64,000 nucleotides of DNA from Lacimicrobium sp. SS2-24 (GTDB lineage Bacteria; Pseudomonadota; Gammaproteobacteria; Enterobacterales; Alteromonadaceae): assembly GCF_002201535.1 (NCBI RefSeq), contig NZ_NIWW01000006.1, forward strand, positions 124,001-188,000, given 5' to 3'. A program made the position numbers and the translations under genes. Below the pieces are notes generated by a model that saw only the letters and a program-made list of their open reading frames with translations, made no database searches and had not been told where the DNA came from. Position 1 is the first letter of the stretch. Every line of letters starts with the position of its first letter. Below are positions 23,210-40,127 of the stretch, one piece after another.

Positions 23210-24544
23210 TTACACTCCCAGTAACAAAAACTCTCGCTCCCAGGAACTGATCACCTCATTAAAGGCTTCATATTCGGTACGCTTCACCGCACTGAAGGCC
23301 CGCGAGAAATTCTCGCCCATTACTTCTCGTAACGGCTCACAACTGTCCAGCAGACGAAGAGATTCTTCCAGGGTACGGGATATTTCAATTTTACCGGTAT
23401 AGGCGTTGCCCTCATTCGCCGCATCGGGCTGCAGTTTTTCCTGCATCCCCAGATAACCACAGGCCAGTGTGGCCGCAAAGGCCAGATAAGGGTTAGCATC
23501 GGAGCCCGGTAGGCGGTTTTCCACACGGAATCCCTCTGGTTCACTGTCAGGCACACGCAATCCGGTTGTGCGGTTATCATAGCCCCAGTCAAAGTTAATG
23601 GGCGCCGAGATATCCGGCGCAAAGCGACGGTAAGAGTTCACATTCGGGGCGAAGAAGCACAATGCGCTGGGCCCGTATTTTTGCAATCCGGCGATATAAT
23701 TGAAGAAAAGTGGTGAATACTTGCCTTCTTTATTGGCAAACGCATTTTTACCGGTTTTCATGTCCACCAGACTCTGGTGAATATGCATGGAACTACCTGG
23801 CTCACTGCGCATGGGTTTTGCCATAAAGGTGGCATAGACCCCATTACTAAAAGCAATTTCGCGCAGCACGCGCTTAAACAAAAAGACTTCATCCGCCAGT
23901 TTCAGTGGGTCACCATGAAGAAAGTTCACTTCAAATTGCGCCGCACCCGACTCATGGATCAGGGTATCGATGCCCAGCTCCATTTTCTCGCAGTAGTCAT
24001 ACATCTGATCGACAATACGCTCAAACTCATTAACCGCATCAATACTGTAGCTCTGCCTGGCTGACTCGCGCCGACCCGAACGCCCCACGGGCGGGGTCAG
24101 CTCGTAGTCCGGATCGGTGTTCTGTGCCACCAGATAAAACTCAACTTCCGGTGCCAGCACCGGCTTGAGGTTTTTGGTTTCATACATCGAGAGTATTTTT
24201 TTCAGCACGTTACGGGTGGCCAACGGGTGAGGCTGACCACTGGCAAGGTAGCAGTCATGGATCAACAGCGCCGTGCGTTCATCGGCCCAGGGCACTTCAC
24301 GGGCAGTGGACAGATCCGGCTCCAGGAACATGTCACTGTCGGTCTCACTGACAATGTCATAGTGTTCATTGGTGTATTCACCCGTCACCGTCTGAATCAG
24401 GATGCTTTCGGGCAACCGGCTCTCCTGTTTTATAAACTTCTTCGCCGGGATAAATTTACCCCGGGCATTGCCTGTCATATCCGGCACCAGGCATTCCACT
24501 TCGGTAATGCGCCTGTTATTCAGCCACTTTTTTACGTCTTCCAT
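23210..24544 (-). CDS. puuA: Glutamine synthetase-family ligase, probable gamma-glutamylputrescine synthetase (copy 1)
   Basis: This 444-residue protein has the glutamine synthetase fold with the ATP/metal motifs around FYLVAQ, ANVNSYRRF and RVENRLPGSDANPYLA. In polyamine clusters such proteins ligate glutamate to putrescine or other amines using ATP, the first step of the Puu pathway. It is shorter than E. coli PuuA and has no adenylation site of GlnA type. It is divergent from a puuB-like gene with a palindrome between, and a second homologue lies at 31753-33102. Confidence 0.85.
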   Translation of the reverse strand: MEDVKKWLNNRRITEVECLVPDMTGNARGKFIPAKKFIKQESRLPESILIQTVTGEYTNEHYDIVSETDSDMFLEPDLSTAREVPWADERTALLIHDCYLASGQPHPLATRNVLKKILSMYETKNLKPVLAPEVEFYLVAQNTDPDYELTPPVGRSGRRESARQSYSIDAVNEFERIVDQMYDYCEKMELGIDTLIHESGAAQFEVNFLHGDPLKLADEVFLFKRVLREIAFSNGVYATFMAKPMRSEPGSSMHIHQSLVDMKTGKNAFANKEGKYSPLFFNYIAGLQKYGPSALCFFAPNVNSYRRFAPDISAPINFDWGYDNRTTGLRVPDSEPEGFRVENRLPGSDANPYLAFAATLACGYLGMQEKLQPDAANEGNAYTGKIEISRTLEESLRLLDSCEPLREVMGENFSRAFSAVKRTEYEAFNEVISSWEREFLLLGV

Positions 24545-24636
24545 ATTTCACCTGTTGTTGTATCGGCATGGCAACACTTTGCAACCTCTGTTGAAGGTTC
24601 CAAAGGGTTGCCGGACACCTGTGTTAAAATTCTATT

Positions 24637-24652
24637 TCGAATTATTATTCGA
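24637..24652. promoter_or_regulatory. Perfect palindrome between puuA copy 1 and puuB copy 1 (candidate TetR operator)
   Basis: TCGAAT-TATT-ATTCGA is a perfect 16-base palindrome in the divergent promoter region. The TetR regulator encoded directly behind puuB copy 1 is the natural candidate to bind it. Confidence 0.55.
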
Positions 24653-24765
24653 TATGCTAGAGTAAATTTAACCATTTAACAATATCTTATTAACCTGAAT
24701 TTTGCTCAAAACCTGAAGAAACAGAGCTAAACAACAGAATAAGACAAACATGCCAGGGCGCCGAT

Positions 24766-26055
24766 ATGCAAAAACACACGGACTCACAGCAGTATTACCA
24801 GCAAACCTGTAACCAGTCGCTGAGTTGTCCCACCTTCAGCGGTGAAAAAGAGGTTGACCTGTGTATTATCGGTGGCGGCCTCACCGGTATCTCCACCGCT
24901 TATCATAGTGCCAAGTCGGGGCTGGATTGCGTACTGCTGGAAGCCGAAACCATTGGATTTGGCGCATCCGGACGTAACGGCGGTCAGGTCAGTCCCGGCC
25001 AACGCCTGGATCAGGCCACCCTGGAAGCGAAAGTGGGAACAGCGCAGGCCAGACATCTGTGGCAACTGGCCCTGGACTCAGTAGATTTAGTGCGCGAGCT
25101 GATCGATACCTATCAGATCCCCTGTGATTTTACCCCCGGTATACTGCACACCGCCTTTAAGCCCAGCCATGCTCAGGAAATGCGTGAGAATGTGCAGTTA
25201 TTGCAATCCCGCTATGGCTATGAGGATTGTCGTTACATTGAGCGCGACGAACTCAGTGAAATGCTCGCCAGCTCCCGCTACCATGGCGGCGAACTGGACA
25301 TGCGGGCCGGTCACCTGCACCCGCTAAATTTCACGCTGGGACTTGCACTCCAGGCGCAAAAAGCCGGCGCCAGCCTGTATGAAAACAGCCGGGTACTGGA
25401 TATAAAGTCTGTGGGTGACAAGCTCAGCATTACAACAGCACAGGGTAAGATAACAACACGCAAGCTGGTATTAGGCTGCAATGGCTATCTGGGAAAACTG
25501 TTTCCCAAGGTGGCGGGTAAAATTATGCCCATCAATAATTTTATCGTTACCACTGCCCCCCTTGGCGAAGAACAGGCCAGGGCACTGATTCGCGATAACG
25601 TTGCGGTGGCCGATTCCAAGTTTGTGATTAACTATTTTCGCATGACGCCTGATCACCGACTGCTGTTTGGCGGCGGTGAGAATTATTCGTCGCGCTTTCC
25701 GGCCGATATTAAAAACTTTGTGCGCCCTTATATGCTGGAAATTTTCCCGCAGCTCGAGGATACCGAGCTGGAACATGGCTGGGGGGGTACACTGGCCATT
25801 ACCATGAATCGCATGCCCCATTTTCAGTGTCTTGACGAACGAATTTACGTTGCCCAGGGCTATTCGGGCCACGGCGTAGCGCTGGCGACCCTGGCGGGAA
25901 AACTCATTGACCAGTCCATCGCCGGCGATCCCAGCGGGTTCAATGCCATGGCAAGCTACCCTACCCCCACTTTTCCCGGCGGCACTCTGCTGCGCTACCC
26001 TGCACTGGTGGCAGGTATGCTGTATTATTCTCTTCGCGATAGATTCGGAAACTGA
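24766..26055 (+). CDS. puuB: FAD-dependent amine oxidoreductase, PuuB-like (copy 1)
   Basis: This 429-residue DAO-family flavoenzyme has the N-terminal FAD-binding motif CIIGGGLTGISTAYH and the GFGASGRNGGQV segment characteristic of PuuB-like gamma-glutamylputrescine oxidases. The C-terminal YSGHGVALATLAGKL is also conserved. It would oxidise the gamma-glutamylated amine made by the divergent ligase to an aldehyde, releasing ammonia and hydrogen peroxide. The TetR gene follows 7 bases later. A second copy lies at 42731-44008. Confidence 0.87.
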   Translation: MQKHTDSQQYYQQTCNQSLSCPTFSGEKEVDLCIIGGGLTGISTAYHSAKSGLDCVLLEAETIGFGASGRNGGQVSPGQRLDQATLEAKVGTAQARHLWQLALDSVDLVRELIDTYQIPCDFTPGILHTAFKPSHAQEMRENVQLLQSRYGYEDCRYIERDELSEMLASSRYHGGELDMRAGHLHPLNFTLGLALQAQKAGASLYENSRVLDIKSVGDKLSITTAQGKITTRKLVLGCNGYLGKLFPKVAGKIMPINNFIVTTAPLGEEQARALIRDNVAVADSKFVINYFRMTPDHRLLFGGGENYSSRFPADIKNFVRPYMLEIFPQLEDTELEHGWGGTLAITMNRMPHFQCLDERIYVAQGYSGHGVALATLAGKLIDQSIAGDPSGFNAMASYPTPTFPGGTLLRYPALVAGMLYYSLRDRFGN

Positions 26056-26062
26056 TGCCAGC

Positions 26063-26689
26063 ATGACAGACAAAAAAACCAGCCGAAAGCCACTGGGGCC
26101 GCGCAGCACTCCCATTCAGAAACGCTCTAAGGCACGGCGGGAGCAAATACTCGATGTGGCCGCCGGCTTGCTGGAAAAGCTCGGCAGCAACAGCCTCACC
26201 ACCATTCGCATCGCCGAAGAGGTGGGCATCTCGGTGGGTACCCTGTACCACTATTTTCCCAACAAGGAAGCCATACTCTATGCCATGGGGCAACACTGGC
26301 TGGAGCAAATGGCGGCTACGTTGCAATCCCCGGACAACCAGCCACAAGACATCGATGCCTTTGTGGAACACTTTGTAAAACAAATGCTCATGCTTTATCG
26401 CCAGCAAAAGGGGTTGCTGCATCTGGTGCAGGGCATGTTTGCCATTCCTCAGCTGATGCCACTGGATGAACAGCACGATGACCTGGTGATTGATTATGTG
26501 GCCAACACCCTGCCCGCTTTGGGTATCGATAAACCTAAAGCCGAACGACAGCGTATTGGCCGTTCGTTGCATGAAGTCAGCCATGCCTTATTGCTGGTGG
26601 TGGTCAATCAGAGCCCCAGGCGGGGCAACAATACCTTGGCCGAACTCAAGCTGTTGCTACGATCTTTGCTGAGCAGCCATCAGCGGTAA
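26063..26689 (+). CDS. TetR/AcrR-family transcriptional regulator
   Basis: This 208-residue regulator has an N-terminal TetR helix-turn-helix (about residues 24-68, including [26 protein letters not shown]). The ATG at 26063 follows the puuB copy 1 stop by 7 bases, so both are co-transcribed. The last codons (ending SSHQR) overlap, on the opposite strand, the truncated agmatinase tail at 26646-26851. This suggests tetR and an intact agmatinase gene were once convergent neighbours with overlapping ends. Confidence 0.9.
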
Positions 26690-26851
26690 GCAGATGTGGA
26701 TTGTGCTGGCACGCCAGCAGGTAGAGCCTGTCTGTCATCATGGTGGCGGCCAGTAAACTGGTGCTCTGGCTCTGATCATAGGGCGGGCTGACTTCCACCA
26801 AATCCATGCCTACCCAGTTTATTCCCTGACGCTTTCGCAACAGCGCCAGTA
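26646..26851 (-). pseudogene. Truncated 3' end of an agmatinase-family gene (relic 1)
   Basis: On the minus strand this encodes the last 68 residues of a SpeB-like protein, with [24 protein letters not shown] and an in-frame stop. It matches the tail of the intact gene at 30765-31712 without indels over about 185 bases. The upstream two-thirds is missing; homology stops at 26851 and is replaced by a junction sequence shared with relic 2. Its 3' end overlaps the tetR end, so this is probably the original chromosomal position of the agmatinase terminus. Confidence 0.85.
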
Positions 26852-26889
26852 GCATAGTGGCAAAAAAACAAGACCTGACCCCATGTTCC
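26852..26889. repeat. Junction repeat, copy 1
   Basis: The plus strand reads ATAGTGGCAAAAAAACAAG, then ACCTGACCCCATGTTCC. The same sequence, with one A fewer, occurs at 29592-29628 directly next to the other agmatinase relic. The reverse complement begins GGGGTCAGGTCTTG, which from memory resembles scars seen beside single-strand (Y1/RAYT-type) transposase elements in gammaproteobacteria; this identification is tentative. Confidence 0.6.
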
Positions 26890-27045
26890 TTCCCTGTCTG
26901 GTCGGCGAGTTTGTTAACGAACATCTAAAGGCTACTGTGACCGTTAAGTGGTTCATGACGCTTTACCCCATTTCCTGGGACTTAAAAGTGCGCTTCCTAA
27001 TAACTATCCTATATTTAGCGTATCGCTGTTATTTTGATCTGTTGT

Positions 27046-29325
27046 ATGACGCTGCCGAGAAATAAAAAAATAACGTTGTTAGCGACACTTTCAACTGGCT
27101 TCTGGTTGTCTGCTGCCCCCCTGTATGCTCAGGATAAAGATCTTTTTTCGATGTCCATCGATGAGTTAATGAATATAGAAGTGGTCTCGGCGTCAAACAT
27201 GAAAGAAAGGCTGATTGATGCACCCGCCACCATCATCGTGATCAGTAAAGAGGATATTCGGCAGCGTGGTTATCTTGAATTGTCGGAAATTTTTGATGAC
27301 TTGCCGGGCATGGATGTGACCCGCCCCTATGGAGACAACTACTTTAAGAACTTCATGAGAGGATACCGCAACACCATTGGTTCCCCCTATTTGGTCATGG
27401 TGGATGGTGTCACCATGAATACCATGTATTTCGGTATTGAGACGCCCATGGTGACTGTTCCTCTTACCAATATAGAGCAAGTCGAAGTGGTGTATGGGCC
27501 TGCCTCTTCCGTATATGGTGCGAATGCTTTTATGGGGGTGGTCAATATCATCACCCAGCGGCACAAGGGCTTAGATGGGAGTCGCTTTTCTGGAAGCGTT
27601 ACCAAAGGCACCGATGGCTTTGATATTACTGAAGCGACCTATGCCTATGGTGAAAATGACTGGCGCTTTATGCTATCTGCCAGAATTGAATCAGGCGATC
27701 TGGCTGACCGCATAGACGCCAATAGCTTTTACTGGTTAAGAGATGAGCTTTACGCCTCAACAGACTTGTGGGGAGGCTTCGCTGAGCAGTTGTCTGATGG
27801 CTTCTCCTCTTATATTGAAAATCGAGGTCTGGATCTGCGGCTGTATTACGGGAACACAGAATTTGCCTGGCAATATTGGTTGCTGGATTCGGGATACGGT
27901 AGCGTTTATCCGGGAGACAGGATCCTGAGTAACGGTGTCTGGCCAAGAGAACAGTATGGCGGTTATATCCGCCACCAAATGGCGCTCACCAGCAATATCG
28001 ATTCCACTACCTTGCTACGCTACCGTCATGACGGTGTACCCAACCATACCTTCGATATAGAAGCCTGGAACGAAACGAATGCGACTGACGATATCCTTGA
28101 GGTTGGTCGTGTTGCGTTAGCACCGGGTGAAACGGCACGTATGCTTCATTTAACCTATTGGCAGTCGCTGAATGACGGCTGGTCACTGTTTCAGGACTTC
28201 GATATTCAACTGTCGGACAGCTTTGACATAAAGACGGGACTGAAATATGAATACAAAGATTTGCAGAAAGCCTACGACTTAACCACTACCACCATCGCGC
28301 CTGAACTGGCAGACCCTGACGATCTGACTCAATATCCCGAACAGTCCGATATCACCAAAGATGACTGGAATCGCATCACCTGGCACGATGTGGGGATTTA
28401 TATGCAAACCAAATGGGCTGTTTCAGAGACGCATAGTTTAAACCTTGGGGCGCGTTATGACAGAAACAATCAATATGGAAGCGAGGTAACGATCCGCGGC
28501 GGATATATTGGCCATTTTGATCGGTTCACTGCCAAGCTACTCTACGGTGAGGCTTTCCAGGAACCTGTTCCCAGAAGTTTGTACGGTGCGTGGACAGGTT
28601 CGGGCAGTGATCCGGACCTCAAACCCGAAAAATCCAATACTATAGAGATAGCGCTAAATTACACGGGCGATGTGTTAAATCATCATTTGAATATCTATCG
28701 GGTCAATAATACCGAAACCGTCATTAACTTTACGGGCGGCGCCAGAAATGTAGGGCAAAGAACTGTCGAGGGCGCGGATTATTCGGTGACCAGTTTGGTA
28801 GATGTTAGCTGGGCACAACAGCTGAAGGTATGGGGCTACGCGTCTTTTATTTTGACACAGGAAGAGGAGAAATATGACACCGAAACCGGAGACTATCTTG
28901 GTGCGGGTATTATTGGGGATTTGGCCAGACAGAAATATTACCTGGGGCTGACCGCCGAATTTAGCAATGACGTCGACTTCACTGTCAGGAGTCGGTATAT
29001 ATCAGATAAGGAAACCGTGGATACCAACCCTGTACGCCATGTTCCGGGTTATTTTGTGCTCGATGCGAATGTCAATTTCAACAACATATGGACAGAAGGC
29101 TTGTCCTTGTCGCTGCGCTTGAACAATTTATTTGATAAAAACTATTATCACCCCGGAGTCAGGGAGGCCAACTCGGGTGATCCTGGTCAGGATCCCAGCT
29201 TACTCGACACTATTGGCTTTTCTGGTATCAATAATCGAGCGTGGAGCGGCAGTTCAGGCTGGTATAACTCACTGCTGCCTCAGCCAGAGCGGCGCTTACA
29301 GCTGACCCTGTCTTATCAATACTAG
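27046..29325 (+). CDS. TonB-dependent outer-membrane receptor
   Basis: This 759-residue protein has a signal peptide (about residues 1-28, ending PLYAQ), a plug domain (about 45-155, with PATIIVISKEDIRQRGY and VEVVYGPASSVYGANAFMGVVNIIT) and a C-terminal beta barrel ending in an aromatic strand (TLSYQY). It would import a ligand across the outer membrane using TonB energy. The ATG at 27046 is used instead of a TTG at 27034, since it directly precedes the signal peptide; no clear SD is seen. No inner-membrane transporter or TonB genes are adjacent. It sits between two agmatinase relics, so it appears inserted. Confidence 0.9.
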   Translation: MTLPRNKKITLLATLSTGFWLSAAPLYAQDKDLFSMSIDELMNIEVVSASNMKERLIDAPATIIVISKEDIRQRGYLELSEIFDDLPGMDVTRPYGDNYFKNFMRGYRNTIGSPYLVMVDGVTMNTMYFGIETPMVTVPLTNIEQVEVVYGPASSVYGANAFMGVVNIITQRHKGLDGSRFSGSVTKGTDGFDITEATYAYGENDWRFMLSARIESGDLADRIDANSFYWLRDELYASTDLWGGFAEQLSDGFSSYIENRGLDLRLYYGNTEFAWQYWLLDSGYGSVYPGDRILSNGVWPREQYGGYIRHQMALTSNIDSTTLLRYRHDGVPNHTFDIEAWNETNATDDILEVGRVALAPGETARMLHLTYWQSLNDGWSLFQDFDIQLSDSFDIKTGLKYEYKDLQKAYDLTTTTIAPELADPDDLTQYPEQSDITKDDWNRITWHDVGIYMQTKWAVSETHSLNLGARYDRNNQYGSEVTIRGGYIGHFDRFTAKLLYGEAFQEPVPRSLYGAWTGSGSDPDLKPEKSNTIEIALNYTGDVLNHHLNIYRVNNTETVINFTGGARNVGQRTVEGADYSVTSLVDVSWAQQLKVWGYASFILTQEEEKYDTETGDYLGAGIIGDLARQKYYLGLTAEFSNDVDFTVRSRYISDKETVDTNPVRHVPGYFVLDANVNFNNIWTEGLSLSLRLNNLFDKNYYHPGVREANSGDPGQDPSLLDTIGFSGINNRAWSGSSGWYNSLLPQPERRLQLTLSYQY

Positions 29326-29359
29326 TGAGAACCTGGGGATTGCAGAGCCTGCAAACTTA

Positions 29360-29591
29360 GCGCGTTATACCCCAGCAACAGCGCATTACGCTGTCGCTAA
29401 GGTTTTTGCTGAGCAGCCATCAGGGGTAAGCAGATGTGGATTGTGCTGGCACGCCAGCAGGTAGAGCCTGTCTGTCATCATGGTGGCGGCCAGTAAACTG
29501 GTGATCTGACTCTGGTCATACAGCGGGCTGACTCCCACCAAATCCATGCCTACCCTGTTTATTCCCTGAAGCTTTCGTAACAACTTCAGTA
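29360..29591. repeat. 232-base direct repeat, copy A (partner 30739-30970)
   Basis: The repeat starts GCGCGTTATACCCCAGCAAC in both places, covers 26 bases of noncoding sequence and then the agmatinase 3' end, and has equal length in both copies with scattered substitutions. It flanks the PEP-CTERM cassette on its left side, while the partner flanks it on the right. Confidence 0.85.
29386..29591 (-). pseudogene. Truncated 3' end of an agmatinase-family gene (relic 2)
   Basis: On the minus strand this encodes the same C-terminal segment as relic 1, with changes such as [15 protein letters not shown] that suggest relaxed selection. Together with 26 bases beyond the stop codon (29360-29385) it forms a 232-base direct repeat of 30739-30970, which includes the tail of the intact gene. 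Homology stops at the same point as in relic 1 and is followed by the same junction repeat. Confidence 0.87.
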
Positions 29592-29628
29592 GGATAGTGG
29601 CAAAAAACAAGACCTGACCCCATGTTCC
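29592..29628. repeat. Junction repeat, copy 2
   Basis: This is nearly identical to 26852-26889 and abuts relic 2. A related GGATCTGACCCC and a second TGACCCC follow at 29672-29699, after which the sequence becomes strongly AT-rich. Confidence 0.6.
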
Positions 29629-29893
29629 GCTTTTGAAAAGTATCTCGAAATATATCATTTAATTTTAATTTGGATCTGACCCCTTTATTATGACCCCTTT
29701 TATTAATTAAGAAATCATGAGTAGCCCGAGCTTTAAATTATTTTTATAACTCGCATCGAGACGTATCAGTTTTTTTTACACTTTTCGTAAGGTATTGAGG
29801 TTAAGAAATATTAATTACTATAAAAACAAACGTTTAAATATTTGGTATTAATTTTGCTAGACCATTATGTATATTTAAATTTTGGAGAAGAAA

Positions 29894-30511
29894 TTGAAGA
29901 AAATTGCTTGTTTGCTTGTTTGCTTGTTTGCCGGACCGGTAAATGCAACGTTAATTGATTTTGACTCACTTCCAGGAGGGGGGGCTGTAGTTAGTGGGAC
30001 AGCAATTACAAATCAGTATTCATCCCTTGGTGTGACTTTTTCTGTTCTTGAAGATGGAATTACGCAAACAGGTGGACCATTGGCCACTACTGAGTTTGCC
30101 CCGCTAGGACAGCAAGGTAACCGACTAGGAAATTTCTATAATTTTTCAACCGGTTTTCGCGCAGATATTCTAAGGATTGAATTTAGTGCTCTTGTATCTA
30201 ACGTAAGTTTTGATTTCTTTCCTCAAGGCGACTCAGGAGGGCAGACTCGTGTGTTAGCTCTAGATAGTAGCCTAGCGCCCATATCTGATACAATGACAGG
30301 TATCTCAGGCTTTCCAGGAATTCAAAACTTTTCGGTTACTGGTAGTGGAATAAGTCGATTGGATATTTTTCAACCAAGTGATGGATGGAACTGGGGGTTG
30401 GATAACCTTTCATTTGATAGCGTTCAAGTCCCAGAGCCCTCTTCTATCGCTCTGCTTGGACTTGGGTTAGCAAGTATTGGATTTTCTAGAAGAAAGAAAC
30501 TTATAAAGTAA
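29894..30511 (+). CDS. PEP-CTERM sorting-domain protein in a putative integron cassette
   Basis: This 205-residue secreted protein starts at a TTG (29894), six bases after GGAG. The signal peptide is followed by a beta-rich domain (LIDFDSLPGGGAV...TNQYSSLGVTFSV) seen in many PEP-CTERM proteins, and it ends with VPEP, a hydrophobic helix and RRKKLIK. The gene and flanks are clearly more AT-rich than the neighbourhood. A terminator and an attC-like site follow, which suggests a mobile gene cassette. A 3x8-base tandem repeat lies inside the signal peptide. No catalytic motif is evident. Confidence 0.87.
   Translation: MKKIACLLVCLFAGPVNATLIDFDSLPGGGAVVSGTAITNQYSSLGVTFSVLEDGITQTGGPLATTEFAPLGQQGNRLGNFYNFSTGFRADILRIEFSALVSNVSFDFFPQGDSGGQTRVLALDSSLAPISDTMTGISGFPGIQNFSVTGSGISRLDIFQPSDGWNWGLDNLSFDSVQVPEPSSIALLGLGLASIGFSRRKKLIK
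29904..29927 (+). repeat. Three tandem copies of an 8-base unit in the signal-peptide coding region
   Basis: The unit TTGCTTGT occurs three times without mismatch, followed by a partial TTGC. Eight is not a multiple of three, so gain or loss of one unit would shift the frame of the PEP-CTERM gene. Confidence 0.85.
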
Positions 30512-30533
30512 CTTTTTTGACTTCAACACTAAG

Positions 30534-30556
30534 CCTCAGCTTGTCTGAGGTTTTTT
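30534..30556 (+). terminator. Terminator of the cassette PEP-CTERM gene
   Basis: CCTCAG and CTGAGG pair around a five-base loop and are followed by six T residues, 22 bases after the stop codon. Confidence 0.85.
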
Positions 30557-30606
30557 ATGCCTTCCAAGTGACTTAACCGATATGCTATTGTTTTTCTACC
30601 CACATT

Positions 30607-30693
30607 GCCTAACAAAAAAATTCACTCGGACAAATTAAAGCTTAGCTCCTATCGTCGCTAAGCTTTAATTTGCCGGTTATTTAGGCGTTAGCT
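30607..30693 (+). other. attC-like integron recombination site
   Basis: The 5' core GCCTAAC (30607-30613) fits RYYYAAC, and the 3' end TTAGGC-GTTAGCT (30681-30693) holds the GTT cleavage triplet. Six bases of the R'' core, GCCTAA, pair with TTAGGC. Inside, CGG-A (with an unpaired A, as expected for the L'' box) faces CCG, then a perfect 16-bp stem CAAATTAAAGCTTAGC (30631-30646) / 30657-30672 encloses a ten-base loop. This is the layout of a folded attC site. No integrase gene is nearby. Confidence 0.75.
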
Positions 30694-30738
30694 TTTCCTG
30701 GGTCGTGTACCGCAGGTTTAGCATCGCTGCTGTTTATT

Positions 30739-30970
30739 GCGCGTTATACCCCAGCAACAGCGCATTACGCTGTCGCTAAGGTTTTTGCTGAGCAGCCATC
30801 AGGGGTAAGCAGATGTGGATTGTGCTGGCACGCCAGCAGATAGAGCATGTCGGTCATCATGGTGGCGGCCAGTAAACTGGTGATCTGGCTCTGATCATAG
30901 GGCGGGCTGACTTCCACCAAATCCATGCCTATCCAGTTCACTCCCTGAAGCTTTCGTAACAGCTCCAGTA
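30739..30970. repeat. 232-base direct repeat, copy B (partner 29360-29591)
   Basis: This covers the 3' end of the intact agmatinase gene plus 26 bases beyond its stop codon. The left boundary matches that of copy A exactly, and both break at the same agmatinase codon on the right, where copy B continues into the intact gene. Confidence 0.85.
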
Positions 30971-31712
30971 CAAAGGGGCCGCTTAAGCCCCCTGAAACCG
31001 GTGTGCCGGTGCCTGGCGCATACACCGGGTCCAGACAATCGATATCAAAGGTCAGGTATACCGGTGCCCCTCCTACGGTGCGCTTTATCTGCTCAACAAC
31101 CTCTTCGGGGCGACAGTGCCACAGTTCATCGGCACACAATACCTTAAAGGGTGAGCTGCCCTGCTCTGTGCGAATACCAATCTGAATCACTTTGTCATCC
31201 TGCAGCAGGCCTTGCTTACGGGCGTGATAAAACACACTGCCATGGTCAAATTCACTGCCACCGGAATAATCATCGCTATGGGCATCAAAGTGCACAACGG
31301 CAACGGGCCCGTGTTTGGCATGCACAGCCTGCAGCGCCGGTAAGGTAATCAGGTGATCACCGCCCAGCATAAAAGGAACGGCTCCGCCCTCGACAACCTG
31401 GCTGACATGCTCACGCACGGCATCCATGGCACCTTTGGCATCACCATGAGAAAAGCCCAGGTCACCAATATCGGCGATATTCAGCGCATCGCGCAGCGAA
31501 AATGGCCAGGGATGTCGCTTTTTTTCCCATCCCAGGTTCACCGACGCCTGGCGTATCGCAGCCGGACCAAACCGGGCTCCAGGCCTGCCAGAGGTAGCCA
31601 GATCAAAGGGGATACCAGCTATGACCACCTGCGTATGTGCATCAATCTGCTGCTGGCGGGCGAACACATACTTATGGGTCCCCTGATAAAGTGAATAATT
31701 GGCGTCTGTCAT
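30765..31712 (-). CDS. speB: Agmatinase/ureohydrolase-family protein (SpeB-like)
   Basis: This 315-residue binuclear manganese hydrolase has all the ureohydrolase metal motifs: GGDH near residue 118, DAHSD near 143 and DIDCLDP near 225. The family includes agmatinase (agmatine to putrescine and urea), guanidinobutyrase and related enzymes. Location in a polyamine cluster favours agmatine or a guanidino/acyl derivative as substrate. It lies 40 bases behind the second puuA-like gene on the same strand, so they are co-transcribed. Its 3' end is repeated twice nearby as relics. Confidence 0.9.
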   Translation of the reverse strand: MTDANYSLYQGTHKYVFARQQQIDAHTQVVIAGIPFDLATSGRPGARFGPAAIRQASVNLGWEKKRHPWPFSLRDALNIADIGDLGFSHGDAKGAMDAVREHVSQVVEGGAVPFMLGGDHLITLPALQAVHAKHGPVAVVHFDAHSDDYSGGSEFDHGSVFYHARKQGLLQDDKVIQIGIRTEQGSSPFKVLCADELWHCRPEEVVEQIKRTVGGAPVYLTFDIDCLDPVYAPGTGTPVSGGLSGPFVLELLRKLQGVNWIGMDLVEVSPPYDQSQITSLLAATMMTDMLYLLACQHNPHLLTPDGCSAKTLATA

Positions 31713-31752
31713 AGCAAAACCTTTATGCTCCTGGTGCGGTAGTTACTACCGA

Positions 31753-33102
31753 TTACAATGTGGTGAGATAAAACTCATACTCTTTGGGGGTGACGGTTTG
31801 CTCGAACTTCTCCAGTTCATGTTCCTTGCAAGCGGTGTACACCTTGATAAAGTCTTCCCCGAAATACTGATTAAACACCTCAGATCCTCTGAGCAGCGTC
31901 AGCGCATCCGTAAGCCGCATCGGCAGACAGGGATTATCCACTTCAAAGGTGTTGCCCTGCTGAGGCTTAGGCGGTGTCAGTGCCTTATCAATACCGTCAT
32001 ACATGGCATATAAAACCGTGGCCATAGCAATATAAGGGTTAGCATCGGCGCCTGCCACGCGATGCTCGATACGCCGGCTCGCTGGCCCACCGGCGGGAAT
32101 GCGTACGGCTACCGTGCGATTATCAATGCCCCAGTTTACAAACATGGGCACATACAGATTCGGCTGCAAGCGACGATAAGAATTGATATTGGGGCATAAT
32201 AACGCAGTGCTCTCCTGCATGGTGCCGAGCAGTCCTGCCACAGAATGAAGCAGCAGTTTGTTATCTTCGGCTTCGCCTTCGGCAAACAGGTTATTGCCGT
32301 CACTGTCCACCAGGCTGGCGTGAATATGCAAACCGGAGCCAGCCTTATCGTCGTAAGGTTTGGCCATAAAGGTGGCCTGCATGCCATGCTCTTCGGCTAC
32401 CTGATGAATAATGCGTTTAAGCATCATGGCATGGTCACAGGCCAGTAACGGATCACTGCCATGGCGCAAGTTAATTTCAAACTGACCCGGCGCGTATTCC
32501 GATACGGCCGTGTCTGCGGGTACGCCCTGCTGCTGGCAGTATTTATCCACATCCAGCAGGAACTCGGCAAAGTCATCCAGATTAATCATCGAATGGCACT
32601 GGGTGCTGTCTTCGCGCTTGCCGGTCTTGGGTGAAATCGGTGGCTGAATGCCGCCTTTTTCATCGCGCTCTTTATCTACCAGATAAAATTCCAGCTCAAC
32701 GGCCACCACCGGTGTCATACCACGCTCTGTAAAACGGGACACCGCCTGGCGCACCTGATTACGGGGCTCAATCATCACGGGCTGTTTGTGTTCGTCGTAC
32801 ATGCTGAACAATACCTGCGCGGTGGGTTGAGTCTGCCAGGGACACACCACCAGGGTTTTCAGATCCGGATAACAGGTGCGATCAGGCTCACCAATGTCCA
32901 GCCCCAGTTCTGAGGCTTCCACCGTTTCACCAGAAGCATCCAGAGCCAACACAGAGAAAGGAATATGCATACCCTTCTTCACGATATTTTTAATGGCATC
33001 GCGTTTAACCCGTTTTCCTCGTGCCATGCCATTTAGGTCAGATAACACAAGATCAAACACTTCTATTTCGGGGTGATCAGCAAGAAAGGAGGCTAACTCC
33101 AT
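31753..33102 (-). CDS. puuA: Glutamine synthetase-family ligase, probable gamma-glutamylpolyamine synthetase (copy 2)
   Basis: This 449-residue protein shows the same glutamine synthetase core as copy 1 (FYLVDKERDE, CPNINSYRRLQPN, RRIEHRVAGADANPYIA) but is clearly divergent in sequence, so it is a paralogue and not a recent duplicate. It may act on a different amine, such as spermidine or ethanolamine-like substrates, or on putrescine. The start codon follows a weak SD. It is divergent from puuD and upstream of speB. Confidence 0.85.
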   Translation of the reverse strand: MELASFLADHPEIEVFDLVLSDLNGMARGKRVKRDAIKNIVKKGMHIPFSVLALDASGETVEASELGLDIGEPDRTCYPDLKTLVVCPWQTQPTAQVLFSMYDEHKQPVMIEPRNQVRQAVSRFTERGMTPVVAVELEFYLVDKERDEKGGIQPPISPKTGKREDSTQCHSMINLDDFAEFLLDVDKYCQQQGVPADTAVSEYAPGQFEINLRHGSDPLLACDHAMMLKRIIHQVAEEHGMQATFMAKPYDDKAGSGLHIHASLVDSDGNNLFAEGEAEDNKLLLHSVAGLLGTMQESTALLCPNINSYRRLQPNLYVPMFVNWGIDNRTVAVRIPAGGPASRRIEHRVAGADANPYIAMATVLYAMYDGIDKALTPPKPQQGNTFEVDNPCLPMRLTDALTLLRGSEVFNQYFGEDFIKVYTACKEHELEKFEQTVTPKEYEFYLTTL

Positions 33103-33314
33103 GATGTTCTCCAGCGTCTAGTATTTTGAACACTTAATCAGTGAAACACATCTAACCACAAAGGTAGTCCGGCTTCCAGCCGTTAAAACACCCCTTAGTT
33201 GCGGTTTTGTTAAACTAAACTTTGTTATTCAGGCCACAAAAGAGTGCCATTCCTGCTTGAAATTTACAGTTAACTCCAATAGCTTGAGCCTATCGTTTCA
33301 ATATATTGCTCACA

Positions 33315-34106
33315 ATGATGAAAGAATCGAACAGCGAAAATATTCTGGTAATTGGCATTTGTGCCGACGTTCACACCCAGGGGGTACACCAGTACCACCA
33401 GGCCGGTGATAAATATGTTCGGGCACTGACGTCACTGAGTCAGCATGTGGTTCCGGTGATCATTCCGGCGTTGTTTCATGAGCTTTCCGAGCAGGCCCAG
33501 GACACATTGCTGGCCACCCTCGACGGCGTGATGTTGACCGGCTCTTATTCCAATTTACATCCTGGCTATTACCAGTCGGCCCTGCCTGATGATGACGATG
33601 CCGCCCGGGATCCTCACCGCGATGCCAGCAACTGGAAACTAATAGAAAAAATTCTCGCTGCCGACCTGCCTTTACTTGGCATCTGCCGCGGCTTCCAGGA
33701 ACTGAATGTCTATTTTGGTGGCACCTTGCATCATCGCATCCACGAAGTGCCCGGGCTGATGGATCACCGTGAGGATAAATCCTTACCGCTGGAACAACAA
33801 TATGCCTGTGCCCACAGTATTTCGCTGACCGAGAAGGGCGTGCTTTCGCAATGGTTTGCGCCCAGACAAGAAATTAAAGTCAACTCTATTCACATGCAGG
33901 GCATCGATCGGCTAGGAAAACACCTTAAGGTGGAGGCCACCGCCCCAGATGGACTGGTAGAAGCCTTTTCCTGCCCGGATTACACCTTTTTAGTGGCCGT
34001 GCAATGGCACCCGGAGTGGCAGCCGCACAATTACCCTGACAACGCCAGCGTGATACAGGGTTTTATTCAGGCCTGCACCACATATAAAAACAGGAGCAGT
34101 CAATGA
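33315..34106 (+). CDS. puuD: Gamma-glutamyl-GABA hydrolase PuuD
   Basis: This 263-residue class I glutamine amidotransferase-like hydrolase cleaves gamma-glutamyl-GABA to glutamate and GABA, the last gamma-glutamyl step of the Puu pathway. The catalytic cysteine is in LLGICRGFQELN near residue 120 and the histidine is in VAVQWHPEW near 234. Two adjacent ATGs (33315, 33318) can start the protein. Its stop overlaps the start of the aminotransferase gene (ATGA), so the two are translationally coupled. Confidence 0.92.
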   Translation: MMKESNSENILVIGICADVHTQGVHQYHQAGDKYVRALTSLSQHVVPVIIPALFHELSEQAQDTLLATLDGVMLTGSYSNLHPGYYQSALPDDDDAARDPHRDASNWKLIEKILAADLPLLGICRGFQELNVYFGGTLHHRIHEVPGLMDHREDKSLPLEQQYACAHSISLTEKGVLSQWFAPRQEIKVNSIHMQGIDRLGKHLKVEATAPDGLVEAFSCPDYTFLVAVQWHPEWQPHNYPDNASVIQGFIQACTTYKNRSSQ

Positions 34107-35452
34107 CACAACTCAAACACTGGCAGCACAAGGATGCAGCCCATCACCTGCACCCTTTTACTAATCAGGCCGACATTAACAAAAAAGGCACCCGTGTCAT
34201 CAGCCATGCGCAAGGGGCCTATATCTATGAGGCCGATGGGCATAAGTTGCTCGACGGCATGTCCGGCCTGTGGTGTTGCAACCTCGGTTATAGCCAGCCA
34301 CGCATCAACCAGGCCATCAGTGAGCAGTTGCAGGAACTGCCCTACTACAACACCTTTTTTCAGTGTACGCACCCTCGCGCCACCGAACTGGCAGAAGCCA
34401 TCAGTCACAAAGCGCCGGCGCACATGAACCGGGTGTTTTATACCAACTCGGGGTCGGAGGCGAATGACAGCGCCATTCGCATGATTCATCGCTACTGGGA
34501 TGCCCTGGGGCAGCCGCAGCGCAAGGCCATTATCGCCAGAGAAAATGCCTATCATGGCAGTACCATTGGTGGTGCCAGCCTCGGTGGCATGGAATTCATG
34601 CACAAACAATTCACACCGCTGGAAAATATTCATCATATTGCACAGCCCTACTGGTTTGGGGCCGATGCGGACATCAGTCCTGACGAGTTTGGTATACAGG
34701 CGGCCCGTGAACTTGAGAAAAAAATTCAGGAACTGGGTGAGAAAAACGTCGCCGCCTTCTTTGCAGAACCGATTCAGGGCGCAGGCGGGGTCATTATTCC
34801 ACCGGAAACCTACTGGCCTGAGATACAGCGAATTTGTGACCAGTACGGTATTTTACTGGTTGTGGATGAAGTCATTTTCGGCTTTGGTCGCACCGGCCAT
34901 TGGTTCGCCAGTGAATGTTATAACCTGACGCCGGACTTTATCGTTTTTGCCAAAGCCGTCACCAATGGATTTCAGCCCCTCGGTGGCTTGCTGATCTCGG
35001 ATCGGGTGGGCGATGCCCTGCTTTCTCATACCGATGATCTGGCTCATGGTTTCACCTATTCAGGGCATCCGGTGGCTTGTGCAGCGGCACTGGCCACACT
35101 GGATATCCTCTCTGAAGGCTATATTGAAAAAGTACGCACTGAGCTGTCACAGGCCATGCAGGACTACTGGCTGGCACTGGGTGAGCATCCTTTAGTGGGT
35201 GAGGCCCGCTGCAAGGGGTTTGTGGGAGCGCTGGAGCTGGTCAAAGACAAGTCCAGCCGTGCACGTTTTGATAAAAATGGTAAGGCTGGCACATTGTGCC
35301 GGGATGCCTCACTGCAATCAGGTCTGGTCATGCGGGCCACCGGTGACACCATGATTATTGCGCCACCTTTTATTCTTGACCGCAGTGATGTCAAAGACTT
35401 AACTGAGAGAGCCTGGCAGGCACTGGATATTACCCTGAGCCAGCTCAGATAA
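34103..35452 (+). CDS. spuC: Class III aminotransferase, putrescine--pyruvate aminotransferase-like (SpuC)
   Basis: This 449-residue PLP enzyme has the class III aminotransferase signature with the Schiff-base lysine in FIVFAKAVTNGFQPLGG and the substrate/phosphate motifs YTNSGSEANDSA and VDEVIFGFGRTG. In Pseudomonas, SpuC converts putrescine to 4-aminobutanal without glutamylation, so the region encodes both a gamma-glutamyl route and a transaminase route. It overlaps puuD by four bases and lies 67 bases before the binding protein gene. Confidence 0.88.
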   Translation: MTQLKHWQHKDAAHHLHPFTNQADINKKGTRVISHAQGAYIYEADGHKLLDGMSGLWCCNLGYSQPRINQAISEQLQELPYYNTFFQCTHPRATELAEAISHKAPAHMNRVFYTNSGSEANDSAIRMIHRYWDALGQPQRKAIIARENAYHGSTIGGASLGGMEFMHKQFTPLENIHHIAQPYWFGADADISPDEFGIQAARELEKKIQELGEKNVAAFFAEPIQGAGGVIIPPETYWPEIQRICDQYGILLVVDEVIFGFGRTGHWFASECYNLTPDFIVFAKAVTNGFQPLGGLLISDRVGDALLSHTDDLAHGFTYSGHPVACAAALATLDILSEGYIEKVRTELSQAMQDYWLALGEHPLVGEARCKGFVGALELVKDKSSRARFDKNGKAGTLCRDASLQSGLVMRATGDTMIIAPPFILDRSDVKDLTERAWQALDITLSQLR

Positions 35453-35519
35453 TTTAAGTACAGGGTTTAACGACGTAACAACAACAAAAAGCAACGATAC
35501 GCAACAAGAGGAAACGGGA

Positions 35520-36614
35520 ATGAAAACCATAAAGAAACTGGGGCTGCTCGCCGCGTCGATGACGGCAGCTATTAGCGTCAACGCACAGGCTGACACCATC
35601 AATGTCTACAACTGGAGTGATTACATTGCAGAAGACACCATTGCCAACTTTGAACAAAAGTCAGGGCATAAAGTGGTCTACGATGTATTCGATTCCAACG
35701 AAGTACTCGAAGCCAAGCTGCTGACAGGGCAAACGGGCTTTGATGTGGTGGTTCCCTCCGCTTCTTTTCTGGGCCGGCAGATCCGTGCTGGTGTATTTAC
35801 CAAACTGGATCGTGAAAAGTTGCCTAACTGGAAACACCTTGATCCCTTGTTAATGGGCAAACTGGAAGTGGTAGACCCGGGCAATCAATATGCAGTGCCC
35901 TATCTGTGGGGTACCACCGGCATTGGCTATAACGAAGAAAAGGTCAAAGCGGCACTGGGCGAAGACTACGAAGTCAACAGCTGGGAGATGATCTTTAACC
36001 CCGATGTTGTCAGCAAGCTCGCCAGTTGCGGCGTGGTGACGCTGGATGCTGCCTCAGAAATGGTCCCGGCGGCGCTGCATTACCTTGGTATGGATCCCAA
36101 CTCTAAGGATCCTAAAGAAATCGAACAGGCCGGTGAACTGCTTAAAACCATCCGTCCGCACATTCGTTACTTCCATTCCTCTCAATATATTAATGACCTT
36201 GCCAACGGCGATATCTGCGTGGCAGTGGGCTGGAGCGGCGACGTATTCCAGGCCGCCGATCGTGCCGATGAAGCCGATAACGGGATTTCTGTAGGGTATG
36301 TGATCCCCAAAGAAGGGGCCGCCATGTGGTTTGATATGCTGGCCATACCTGCCGATGCCAAGAGCATGGATGCCGCCTATCAGTTCATTAATCACCTGCT
36401 TGAGCCTGACGTCATTGCCGGTGTCAGTGATTATGTCTGGTATCCCAATGGCAACAAAAGCGCCACAGAGCTGGTCGACCCGGAAATCACCTCCAACCCG
36501 GCTATTTATCCTCCAATGGACGTGATGGAAAAGCTGTATACCTTCGAGGTCATGCCTGCACGGGTTTCCCGTGTCACAAACCGCGTATGGACAGATGTAA
36601 AGTCTGGCAGATAA
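35520..36614 (+). CDS. potF: Polyamine ABC transporter periplasmic binding protein (PotF/SpuD-like)
   Basis: This 364-residue protein has a signal peptide (about residues 1-26, ending AQA) and the PotD/PotF fold, starting NVYNWSDYIAEDTIANFE, as in putrescine-binding proteins. WGTTGIGYNEEKV and AVGWSGDVFQA are also typical of the family. GAGGAAACGGG precedes the ATG. It delivers putrescine or spermidine to the permease encoded by the following genes. Two stem-loops separate it from the ATPase gene. Confidence 0.93.
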   Translation: MKTIKKLGLLAASMTAAISVNAQADTINVYNWSDYIAEDTIANFEQKSGHKVVYDVFDSNEVLEAKLLTGQTGFDVVVPSASFLGRQIRAGVFTKLDREKLPNWKHLDPLLMGKLEVVDPGNQYAVPYLWGTTGIGYNEEKVKAALGEDYEVNSWEMIFNPDVVSKLASCGVVTLDAASEMVPAALHYLGMDPNSKDPKEIEQAGELLKTIRPHIRYFHSSQYINDLANGDICVAVGWSGDVFQAADRADEADNGISVGYVIPKEGAAMWFDMLAIPADAKSMDAAYQFINHLLEPDVIAGVSDYVWYPNGNKSATELVDPEITSNPAIYPPMDVMEKLYTFEVMPARVSRVTNRVWTDVKSGR

Positions 36615-36625
36615 CGCTCAGCGGT

Positions 36626-36694
36626 GACGTGACCCGCTCACGTCATCGCCGTTTCGGATAAGCGATAACGAGACCGGAGCGTCTATGACGCTCC
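36626..36694 (+). promoter_or_regulatory. Two stem-loops between potF and potG
   Basis: TGACGTGA/TCACGTCA (36626-36646, five-base loop) and GGAGCGT/ACGCTCC (36676-36694, five-base loop) are perfect stems in the 102-base gap between binding protein and ATPase genes. Neither has a proper T tract. This layout is usual where the binding protein mRNA is stabilised or transcription partly attenuates so that it is made in excess. Confidence 0.6.
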
Positions 36695-36716
36695 TCTGTT
36701 CAAAAGGTTTAGCAAA

Positions 36717-37835
36717 ATGACGTTAAAACATGAGTCCAGCACTACCAGCAAGGTATTGATGGAACTGAAAAACCTGAGCAAAAGCTTCGATGGCTACCAG
36801 GCTGTCAGACATGTTGATCTGCAGTTTTACGAAGGTGAGATATTCGCCCTGCTGGGCGGCTCCGGATGCGGAAAATCCACATTGCTGCGCATGCTGTCAG
36901 GCTTTGAACTGCCCACAGAAGGCAGCATTTTGTTTAATGGCGAGGACGTCGCCAAGGTACCGCCTTATAAACGTCCCTTTAATATGATGTTCCAGTCCTA
37001 TGCCCTGTTTCCCCATATGACCGTTGAGGCCAATATTGCCTATGGTCTGAAGCAGGACAAAATGAAAAAAGCGGATATTGATGCCCGTGTCAATGAAATG
37101 CTCAAACTGGTGCACATGGAGGAATATCGTACGCGCAAACCCGATCAGCTCTCGGGCGGACAACGCCAGCGGGTGGCCCTTGCCCGTAGCCTGGCCAAGA
37201 AGCCTCGCCTGTTGCTGCTTGACGAACCCATGGGTGCACTGGATAAAAAATTACGTGGCGAAATGCAGTTAGAGCTGGTGGATATCATCAAGCAAGTGGG
37301 CGTAACCTGTGTCATGGTCACCCATGATCAGGAAGAAGCCATGACCATGGCCGACCGCATCGCGGTTATGCATGCCGGGGAAATTCTGCAAATCGGCTCG
37401 CCTCACGACATCTATGAATACCCCAACTGCCGCTTTGTGGCGGATTTTATCGGCTCAGTCAATATGTTTGACGGCACCATCGCCGATGAAGAGCCCGCCT
37501 TTGTGGTAATTGATGTCCCCAATCTCGATGCCCCGATTTACATTGACCATGGTATCAGTGGTCCCGGCGGAAACCGCCACGTCAGTGTGGCCATCAGACC
37601 CGAAAAAATGCGCATGAGTGCCGAAAAACCCGATGAAAAATATAACTGGGGTAAAGGCATCATCGACGATCTGGCATATCTCGGCCAGCACAGTATCTAT
37701 CACATATTGTTGCCCGATAATCAGTTTGTTCAGATCACTCAGACCAATGACAACCGACGGGAGCGCCCCTTTGAGCTGGAGCAGGAAATTTATCTGCACT
37801 GGACACCGGACGCTTGTGTGGTTCTGGAGGAGTGA
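36717..37835 (+). CDS. potG: Polyamine ABC transporter ATP-binding protein (PotG-like)
   Basis: This 372-residue ATPase has Walker A GGSGCGKST near residue 49, the signature LSGGQRQRVALARSLA near 145 and Walker B LLLLDEPMGALD near 166, followed by a C-terminal TOBE domain (about 290-365). It energises polyamine import by the permease pair encoded immediately downstream. The start of potH lies two bases after its stop. Confidence 0.95.
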   Translation: MTLKHESSTTSKVLMELKNLSKSFDGYQAVRHVDLQFYEGEIFALLGGSGCGKSTLLRMLSGFELPTEGSILFNGEDVAKVPPYKRPFNMMFQSYALFPHMTVEANIAYGLKQDKMKKADIDARVNEMLKLVHMEEYRTRKPDQLSGGQRQRVALARSLAKKPRLLLLDEPMGALDKKLRGEMQLELVDIIKQVGVTCVMVTHDQEEAMTMADRIAVMHAGEILQIGSPHDIYEYPNCRFVADFIGSVNMFDGTIADEEPAFVVIDVPNLDAPIYIDHGISGPGGNRHVSVAIRPEKMRMSAEKPDEKYNWGKGIIDDLAYLGQHSIYHILLPDNQFVQITQTNDNRRERPFELEQEIYLHWTPDACVVLEE

Positions 37836-37837
37836 GC

Positions 37838-38761
37838 ATGAAAGCCCTGACACCGACATGGTACAAACTCAGACAATCCGCCTGGTTGAAACCCAGAAAC
37901 GGGGTCATTGCCATTCCCTACCTGTGGCTGCTGCTGTTTTTTCTGGTTCCGTTTATCATTGTTCTGAAGATCAGCTTTGCCGAAGCGCAAATTGCGATAC
38001 CGCCCTATACCGACCTGATTACCTATGCCAATGATCAGCTCAGTATCAACCTTAATCTGGGCAACTTCGTCTGGCTGTTTAATGATGACCTGTACTTCAG
38101 TGCCTACCTGAGTTCCATTCGCATTGCGCTGGTCTCGACCCTGCTCTGCCTGTTGATAGGCTACCCCATGGCACTGGCCATCAGCCGGGCGCCTGCTTCC
38201 AGCCGCAATGTACTGTTGCTGTTGGTGATTCTGCCATCCTGGACCTCGTTCCTGATCCGTATTTATGCGTGGATTGGCATACTCAAGCCCAATGGGTATA
38301 TCAACAATGCGTTGATGGCGATGGGTATTATTGATACCCCTATCGTGATGCTGCATACGGATTTTGCGGTCTATGTGGGCATTGTGTATGCCTACCTGCC
38401 CTTTATGATTCTGCCCTTGTACGCCAACATGATGAAGCTTGACCACAGTCTGGTTGAGGCCTCGTCTGATTTGGGGGCATCCCCGGTAACCACCTTGTTC
38501 AAAGTGATTCTGCCACTGACCAAAGCCGGGATTATTGCTGGCTGTATGCTGGTGTTTATTCCGGCAGTGGGTGAGTTTGTTATTCCTGAGCTGCTTGGCG
38601 GCCCGGAAACACTGATGATCGGTAAGATTCTGTGGGAAGAATTCTTCAACAACCGCGATTGGCCAGTGGCCTCTGCGGTGGCCATTATTATGCTGGCATT
38701 GTTGATCCTGCCCATCATGTGGTTTGACCGTTACCAGAACAAACAGATGGAGCAGCAATGA
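37838..38761 (+). CDS. potH: Polyamine ABC transporter permease (PotH-like)
   Basis: This 307-residue inner-membrane protein has about six helices and the permease EAA loop (EASSDLGASPVTTLFKVILP). ATG 37838 is chosen because GGAGGA precedes it; an upstream in-frame start would lie inside potG. It pairs with PotI to form the channel. The stop overlaps the potI start by four bases. Confidence 0.94.
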   Translation: MKALTPTWYKLRQSAWLKPRNGVIAIPYLWLLLFFLVPFIIVLKISFAEAQIAIPPYTDLITYANDQLSINLNLGNFVWLFNDDLYFSAYLSSIRIALVSTLLCLLIGYPMALAISRAPASSRNVLLLLVILPSWTSFLIRIYAWIGILKPNGYINNALMAMGIIDTPIVMLHTDFAVYVGIVYAYLPFMILPLYANMMKLDHSLVEASSDLGASPVTTLFKVILPLTKAGIIAGCMLVFIPAVGEFVIPELLGGPETLMIGKILWEEFFNNRDWPVASAVAIIMLALLILPIMWFDRYQNKQMEQQ

Positions 38762-39588: not shown

Positions 39589-40127
39589 AAGTGGGTCAGC
39601 GTATTAAGAAGTTGCGTCAGGTCAGAGGCCTGTCACAACGGGAGCTGGCAAAAGTGGTCAATCTGCCCAACAGCACCTTGTCCATGATAGAGCGTGACGC
39701 GGTCAGCCCGTCTATCAGTAATCTGCACAAGATACTGACCGGGCTGGATATGCCACTCAGCCACTTTTTCACCCATGACTTCGATCAGGGTGAAAAAGTG
39801 GTGTATCACGCCGACGAACTGCAGGACATTGGCAGTGGCGGGCTGCAATACCTGTTGGTAGGCGCCGACAAACAGGATCGCCAGCTGACCTTTTTGATCG
39901 AAACCTACCCGCCCCATTCCGGCACGGGGGATGAGTGGATGACCCACGAGGGGCATGAGGCGGGCACGGTGCTCGAAGGTGAGATCGTCATTTTACAAAA
40001 TGAGCAGGAATACCACCTCAAAGCCGGTGACAGTTATTACCTGAATACACAGCTACCACATCAGTTTGTAAACCGTGGAGCACAAGTTTGTCGTCTGGTC
40101 AGTGCCGTGGCACCGGCCAGTTTCTGA
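39585..40127 (+). CDS. puuR: XRE-family regulator with cupin domain, PuuR-like
   Basis: This 180-residue protein has an N-terminal helix-turn-helix of the XRE type (about residues 7-62, RGLSQRELAKVVNLPNSTLSMIERD) and a C-terminal cupin domain (about 105-175, with HEGHEAGTVLEGE). In E. coli, PuuR represses the puu genes and is relieved by putrescine. Its place between the potI and puuC genes supports the same role. It starts with a four-base overlap with potI. Confidence 0.9.
   Translation: MKVGQRIKKLRQVRGLSQRELAKVVNLPNSTLSMIERDAVSPSISNLHKILTGLDMPLSHFFTHDFDQGEKVVYHADELQDIGSGGLQYLLVGADKQDRQLTFLIETYPPHSGTGDEWMTHEGHEAGTVLEGEIVILQNEQEYHLKAGDSYYLNTQLPHQFVNRGAQVCRLVSAVAPASF

Follow-up and report, generated by a model that had tools for sequence, protein, structure and literature searches.

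Can a surface protein of the PEP-CTERM type be carried by an integron gene cassette? The question is raised by a locus of Lacimicrobium sp. SS2-24, where a short AT-rich block holds one gene for a PEP-CTERM protein and, downstream of it, a hairpin resembling the attC recombination site of a cassette. A preliminary description, made from the letters of the window alone (the window being the whole 64-kb stretch of contig NZ_NIWW01000006.1 that was analysed), had regarded this block as a lone integron-type cassette. As argued below, the locus quite probably represents a solitary, complete attC site (of the kind we take to be a SALIN, or a CALIN of one) that closes a left-eroded cassette with a PEP-CTERM surface protein as its predicted cargo.

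Organization of the PEP-CTERM Gene Block

The block extends over approximately 29592-30738 and has a GC content of 0.36-0.42, compared to 0.47-0.50 on its left and approximately 0.55 on its right. Its single gene (29894-30511, plus strand) begins with a TTG start codon at 29894 and ends with a stop codon at 30509-30511. The encoded protein carries a C-terminal tag of the form VPEPSS...RRKK, which exceeded the cut-offs of both TIGR02595 (29.5 bits; cut-off, 16) and PF07589 (32.3 bits; cut-off, 20.7), and its N-terminus, judged by eye, is signal-peptide-like. No Pfam domain was detected in the middle part of the protein; a single-sequence structure model had a mean pLDDT of 53, too weak for use, and a search of PDB sequences returned one chance-level match (E 0.35). 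Upstream of the gene is an AT-rich leader with TGACCCC repeats (29592-29893, plus strand), in which a cassette start was not recognisable; more of these repeats (GGATCTGACCCC, TATGACCCC) were seen at 29660-29710. The block yielded no promoter-like site.

Between the gene and the attC site lies an intrinsic terminator (30530-30556, plus strand) with the stem CCTCAG-CTTGT-CTGAGG (30534-30550) followed by TTTTTT. Folding of 30525-30560 gave -5.6 kcal/mol (z -2.6), and a consensus terminator scan returned the stem at 30534-30550 on the minus strand only. Gene, terminator, and attC thus follow each other in agreeing order and strand, all on the plus strand, and the arrangement originally described, an AT-rich block with one PEP-CTERM gene, then a terminator and then an attC site, was confirmed by GC content, by TIGR02595 and PF07589, and by inspection of the sequence.

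Identity of the attC Site

The attC site occupies 30607-30693 on the plus strand, and each of the structural marks that had been read from it (a GCCTAAC core, a TTAGGC-GTTAG end, CGG/CCG inner boxes with one extrahelical A, and a 16-bp stem) was found in the sequence. R'' is GCCTAAC (30607-30613), and R' is GTTAGCT (30687-30693), preceded by ...TTTAGGC; the inner boxes are CGG, with the one extrahelical A, and CCG opposite to it, while the perfect 16-bp stem (CAAATTAAAGCTTAGC / GCTAAGCTTTAATTTG) encloses a loop of 10 nt. Polarity, extrahelical A, and R boxes all agree with those of an attC site. As single-stranded DNA, the 87-nt site folds with -21.5 kcal/mol on either strand, with z-scores of -6.4 (bottom) and -5.7 (top), and none of 200 shuffles folded as well. 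The register of the R boxes in the predicted fold varies with the length folded; for the bottom-strand 87-mer, it is correct in the best structure and shifted in the centroid, and it is likewise shifted in the best structure of a 101-mer. The R''/R' pair includes one C-C mismatch and one G-T pair, as would be expected if R' derives, as it may, from the right-hand neighbor. The point of recombination is presumably located between G30687 and T30688. An Rfam scan of 26500-31800 gave no match at E<=5.

A search with an attC covariance model had been proposed as a check on this hairpin, and a model of our own, R1, was built for it in place of that of IntegronFinder. The integron integrase model TIGR02249 exceeded its cut-off in 31 of the 40 genomes searched, including that of the window, and DNA beside the integrase was fetched in part of these genomes. 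Sites were chosen by box motifs and DNA folding; 42 were brought to one orientation, of which 32 were distinct and 30 were aligned (two being dropped by eye) with a hand-drawn structure. All training sites came from the integrons of relatives and none from the genome of the window. Applied to the 64-kb window, R1 gave a significant match to 30607-30693 on the plus strand (62.7 bits, E 2e-13) as the sole match at E<=10, and the alignment spans all 100 model positions. In an unfiltered run over 4.6 kb, the runner-up reached only 11.7 bits.

The specificity of R1 was assessed with eight of the nine genomes that had no integrase over the cut-off (G035 was left out). Among 150 candidates scored in each, no match at E<=1 was found in G022, G025, and G027. 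There was at least one match in G030 (E 0.04) and in G018 (E 9.9e-6), and at least three were found in G004, eight in G019, and 25 in G012, with a best listed score of 82.9 bits; with 150 candidates scored per genome, all such whole-genome counts are lower bounds. G004 carries broken pieces of an integrase, and the matches in G018, G004, G019, and G012 were provisionally read as stray sites or as arrays without an intact integrase. In G012 and G019 in particular, the integrase of the arrays may have been lost or may be missing from the assembly.

That the hairpin would be a terminator or a chance palindrome, unrelated to integrons, is suggested by its location downstream of a gene and by its strong stem on both strands. 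This is very unlikely given the covariance score, which was obtained from a model lacking sites of this genome; moreover, the R boxes, extrahelical A, and polarity fit an attC site, and a separate terminator precedes it. Judged by sequence and structure score, the attC site at 30607-30693 is genuine.

Integrase, Other attC Sites, and Exosortase of the Genome

The preliminary description further held that no integrase was nearby and that the attC site lacked an integron. The first part stands for the window, whereas the second does not for the genome, which encodes an integron integrase on contig C12 (TIGR02249, 453 bits) and has other attC sites; the site is thus solitary without being integron-free. 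When 150 of 510 candidates of the genome were scored with R1, at least 14 matched at E<=1, and the window's attC was the best among those listed. By contig, the listed matches are distributed over C12 and C3 (three each), C21 and C1 (two each), and C15 and C19 (one each), together with C18, which has a partial match at the contig start in addition to the window's attC. The location of matches near the ends of C3, C15, C18, and C19 indicates that the assembly was probably broken in cassette arrays. Contig C18 measures 239 kb, and with its location at 154.6 kb the window's attC is no closer than 84 kb to either contig end. Stray attC sites are common in the genus, as six of the 15 matches in the single-contig genome of the congener G001 lie outside its main array. 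Inside an attC array on C3, a gene with an Imm35 immunity domain (PF15567) was also observed (L098 2610-2906).

Like other SALINs or single-attC CALINs, the locus has one significant attC with no second in 64 kb, and an integrase elsewhere in the genome (on C12); it differs from them in its missing left end, its PEP-CTERM cargo, and its location in a composite insertion with direct repeats. Similarly, it shares with PEP-CTERM/exosortase systems a tag that scores over both curated cut-offs and a genome with one EpsH-type exosortase (C16, 243.6 bits), but differs in the integron recombination site that accompanies the gene. One exosortase match each was found in this genome, in G001, and in the second congener, G002. 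If the PEP-CTERM protein is expressed, the chromosomal exosortase would be expected to sort it in trans. The folded attC, for its part, could still be acted on by the integron integrase that the genome encodes.

The Left End of the Block

An inserted cassette starts with TTNNNN, and a G plus that start is complementary to the cassette's own R''. For the R'' of the block, the expected left end is GTTAGGC, and it was not found over 28501-30606 (2.1 kb), where the best agreement was 5/7, obtained many times. When the 1.5 kb upstream of eight stray congener attC sites were scanned in the same manner, the agreement was 7/7 for three (both sites of L134 and that of L138, all in G001), 6/7 for another three, and 5/7 for two. 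With 7/7 reached at three of eight sites, the test can work and is not decisive every time. The left boundary had from the beginning been called unclear, and rightly so; the complete cassette of about 1 kb that had been envisaged is not supported, no left end above 5/7 having been found, compared to the 7/7 of the three congener sites. For want of a left end that matches, excision of the block as a unit is not demonstrable. Left-eroded is the best description of the block.

Insertion Between tetR and speB

In G001, tetR and speB converge and their gene ends overlap, which represents the empty site. By blastn, positions 23211-26861 and 30765-39775 of the window align to one continuous stretch of G001 (L055), and likewise of G002 (L056), with the tetR/speB overlap being used twice, and hence the insertion was delimited to 26862-30764 (3.9 kb). 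It is flanked by tetR (26063-26689; TetR_N and TetR_C_15 over their cut-offs) and by an intact speB for agmatinase (30765-31712, minus strand; NF002564, 376 bits; cut-off, 302). Within it are a gene for a TonB-dependent receptor (27034-29325, plus strand; PF00593, 83.8 bits, and PF07715, 70.5 bits, both over cut-off), the PEP-CTERM block, and extra 3' ends of speB. A precise absence of about 1 kb had been predicted for relatives; what G001 and G002 lack is instead the entire 3.9 kb, including the TonB receptor gene and the speB repeats. No DNA match to the TonB receptor gene was found in either congener among the five candidates scored per genome. In 58 relatives, searched to the same depth, no DNA source of this insert was detected, with weak patches of 67-87% identity in six, and a plasmid search with the 3.9-kb insert gave no match.

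The 3' end of speB was found in three diverged copies, arranged as 232-nt direct repeats on the minus strand. Copy 1 (26620-26851) overlaps tetR and is still joined to it as in the congeners, copy 2 (29360-29591) is a truncated 3' end separated from copy 1 by the TonB receptor gene, and copy 3 (30739-30970) comprises the 3' end of the intact speB and 26 bp past its stop codon. Edges are common to pairs of copies, the left one to copies 2 and 3 and the right one to copies 1 and 2. Over 206 bp, the copies differ mutually at 14-19 sites, and so the duplication is not recent; from the two congeners they differ at 33-39, and the duplication is probably younger than the split from the species of G001 and G002. 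The two inserts, TonB and PEP-CTERM, are unrelated save for approximately 36 bp following copies 1 and 2, which are 97% identical. A GGATAGTGGCAAAAA-CAAGACCTGACCCC motif is present at 26852-26888 and 29592-29628 of the window, and at approximately 4198-4231 and 6243-6277 of L037. On contig C15, approximately 2 kb apart, are two further occurrences of a 34-35-bp piece that copies 1 and 2 have at their right edge; it is perhaps the end of a dispersed element.

Integration of cassettes at chromosomal attG sites has been published (Loot et al., 2024, Nat Microbiol, as cited in PMC12901181), and a complete single cassette, its left end too divergent to be recognised, could have been inserted here by the integrase along this route. 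As with the attG-integrated cassettes represented by that citation, a cassette-like gene with its attC is located in the chromosome outside of an integron. The empty site of G001 and G002 is one for 3.9 kb with repeats. In G001, some stray cassettes do have well-matching left ends (the two in L134 and the one in L138), and five of the eight stray congener sites lack a 7/7 end. Nevertheless, we consider such an insertion unlikely. In contrast to the cassettes so described, a left junction is not demonstrable, and the DNA missing from the congeners is not of cassette length but comprises 3.9 kb with repeats; furthermore, the 45 bp that follow the attC lie outside the 232-nt repeat and resemble nothing recognised.

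The direct repeats on either side of the two inserts would be explained if a piece of a larger array had entered through the 3' end of speB, by homologous or Campbell-type recombination, and had then lost both of its ends; the pairwise edges would be expected if circles with a common segment integrated serially, or after unequal crossover. Other stray attC sites, two in this genome (L101, L102) and those at seven congener loci, were found without comparable flanking repeats; L135 and L138 of the congeners do have repeats, none of which brackets an attC. This full course of events is conceivable, if somewhat doubtful, as no source array or circle was found and the inserts have only the approximately 36 bp at their left edges in common. 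Nor is a simple origin of copy 2 by recombination between copies 1 and 3 evident, since the differences common to copies are interspersed rather than blockwise (six shared with copy 1, 11 with copy 3, and eight its own). Half-attC sites were likewise considered at the left edge of copy 2 (29351-29370) and of copy 3 (30730-30749); with a position-weight profile trained on 82 of 235 R1 matches, these edges gave background scores of 5.1 and 10.1 bits, respectively, compared to 22.4 bits for the real attC. The copy 3 edge is among the approximately ten best places of the window, but eight or nine unrelated ones score as high (<=11.8 bits), and the idea was therefore rejected.

As between the two routes, the repeats favor entry by homologous recombination of an array fragment rather than by integrase at an attG-type site. 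The cassette would have reached the speB-tetR junction some time ago within the 3.9-kb insertion, its attC remaining intact and its left end being lost. Apart from this question, the arrangement of two unrelated inserts among three agmatinase 3' ends could represent a repeat-driven slot for gene gain.

Other PEP-CTERM Genes and Relatives of the Protein

In a self-search of the genome, two pieces of the block matched contig C21, where the minus strand (L034) has, in order, an attC, a trypsin-like gene, a second attC, and a PEP-CTERM gene with a terminator and then an attC 5' arm behind it. This second PEP-CTERM gene (L034 9296-9835, minus strand) follows an attC of 27.7 bits, the G/TTAGGC junction of which fits that gene's own R''. 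As in the block, the C21 gene encodes a PEP-CTERM protein and is followed by a terminator and a similar attC 5' arm; 26 of 28 bases of the truncated C21 site agree with the window's attC, and 62 of 86 aligned positions at the start of the two genes are identical. The C21 array differs in that it has an attC upstream of the gene and the downstream one is truncated, and the two proteins are 27% identical over a gapped alignment of 226 columns, mainly at the two ends. The C21 attC (L034 9094-9244) ends after its 5' arm, and so each of the two putative PEP-CTERM cassettes lacks its former context at one end.

In this genome and the two congeners, PEP-CTERM genes are usually not linked to attC sites. 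Of the nine PEP-CTERM tags detected in the genome, two have an R1 match within 1.5 kb (the upstream attC, in the case of the C21 gene) and seven have none, and by coordinates none of the 35 tags of the congeners (15 in G001, 20 in G002) is attC-linked. The nearest pair of tag and attC is approximately 40 kb apart in G001, and in G002 the two have no contig in common. The window itself has a second, weaker PEP-CTERM gene without an attC (16065-16679, minus strand; 19.2 bits; tag at 16092-16154). An earlier motif scan of the arrays of relatives, drawn from 31 sources, was insensitive, as it missed this latter tag and gave two spurious matches, and a profile was therefore made from 36 tags of the genus (that of the block included) and applied to 2623 frames from the same sources. 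At E<=1e-4, it returned only the two genes of the window, that of L034, and one in L049, the tag of which is approximately 11 kb from the attC matches of its locus; the next, in L053 (E 0.005), is approximately 14 kb away. PEP-CTERM proteins are consequently not a usual cargo of the relatives' arrays, as no tag adjoins an attC in those fetched.

Relatives of the block's protein are few. They were found at E<=1e-8 in four of 393 other genomes of the order, with 31-49% identity, and none of the four was a cassette with an attC within 1.5 kb; in the 18-kb regions around them, attC matches occur only in L094, at least 5.6 kb from the gene. A weak match, with 31% identity over residues 71-162, comes from a metagenome-assembled genome of the Saprospiraceae and is also without attC, and a search of plasmids with the protein gave none at E<=1e-5.

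The scarcity of relatives, none with an attC beside it, and the absence of attC linkage among the PEP-CTERM genes of the congeners and in the relatives' arrays count against the reading of a solitary attC that closes a left-eroded cassette, as do the missing left end, the R''/R' mismatch, the varying fold register, and the lack of a promoter-like site. Even so, the PEP-CTERM gene most likely arrived as an integron cassette, be it in its own or in a donor genome, and the stray attC-linked gene, taken together with the second gene in the C21 array, points to integron cassettes as possible carriers of surface proteins of this type.

Exosortase Substrates as Integron Cargo

Much integron cargo is without known function. 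In the open literature, no paper was found that joins PEP-CTERM with integron and gene cassette, or exosortase with integron, most subscription journals lying outside of this search. By this search, what appears new is the PEP-CTERM cargo; a solitary attC and insertion at attG were known, and stray attC sites are frequent in the genus. As a tentative generalization, which we would not yet expect to hold, exosortase substrates may circulate as integron cassettes, each a unit of signal peptide, variable middle, and sorting tag with its own terminator and attC, and any incomer would be served by the resident exosortase. If this is true, bacteria with PEP-CTERM proteins would interchange surface proteins through the integron, and strays like the present block would become fixed in the chromosome. 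Two PEP-CTERM genes tied to attC sites, together with a resident exosortase, would provide a concrete route by which surface proteins may be gained or swapped singly, with one sorting enzyme in common.
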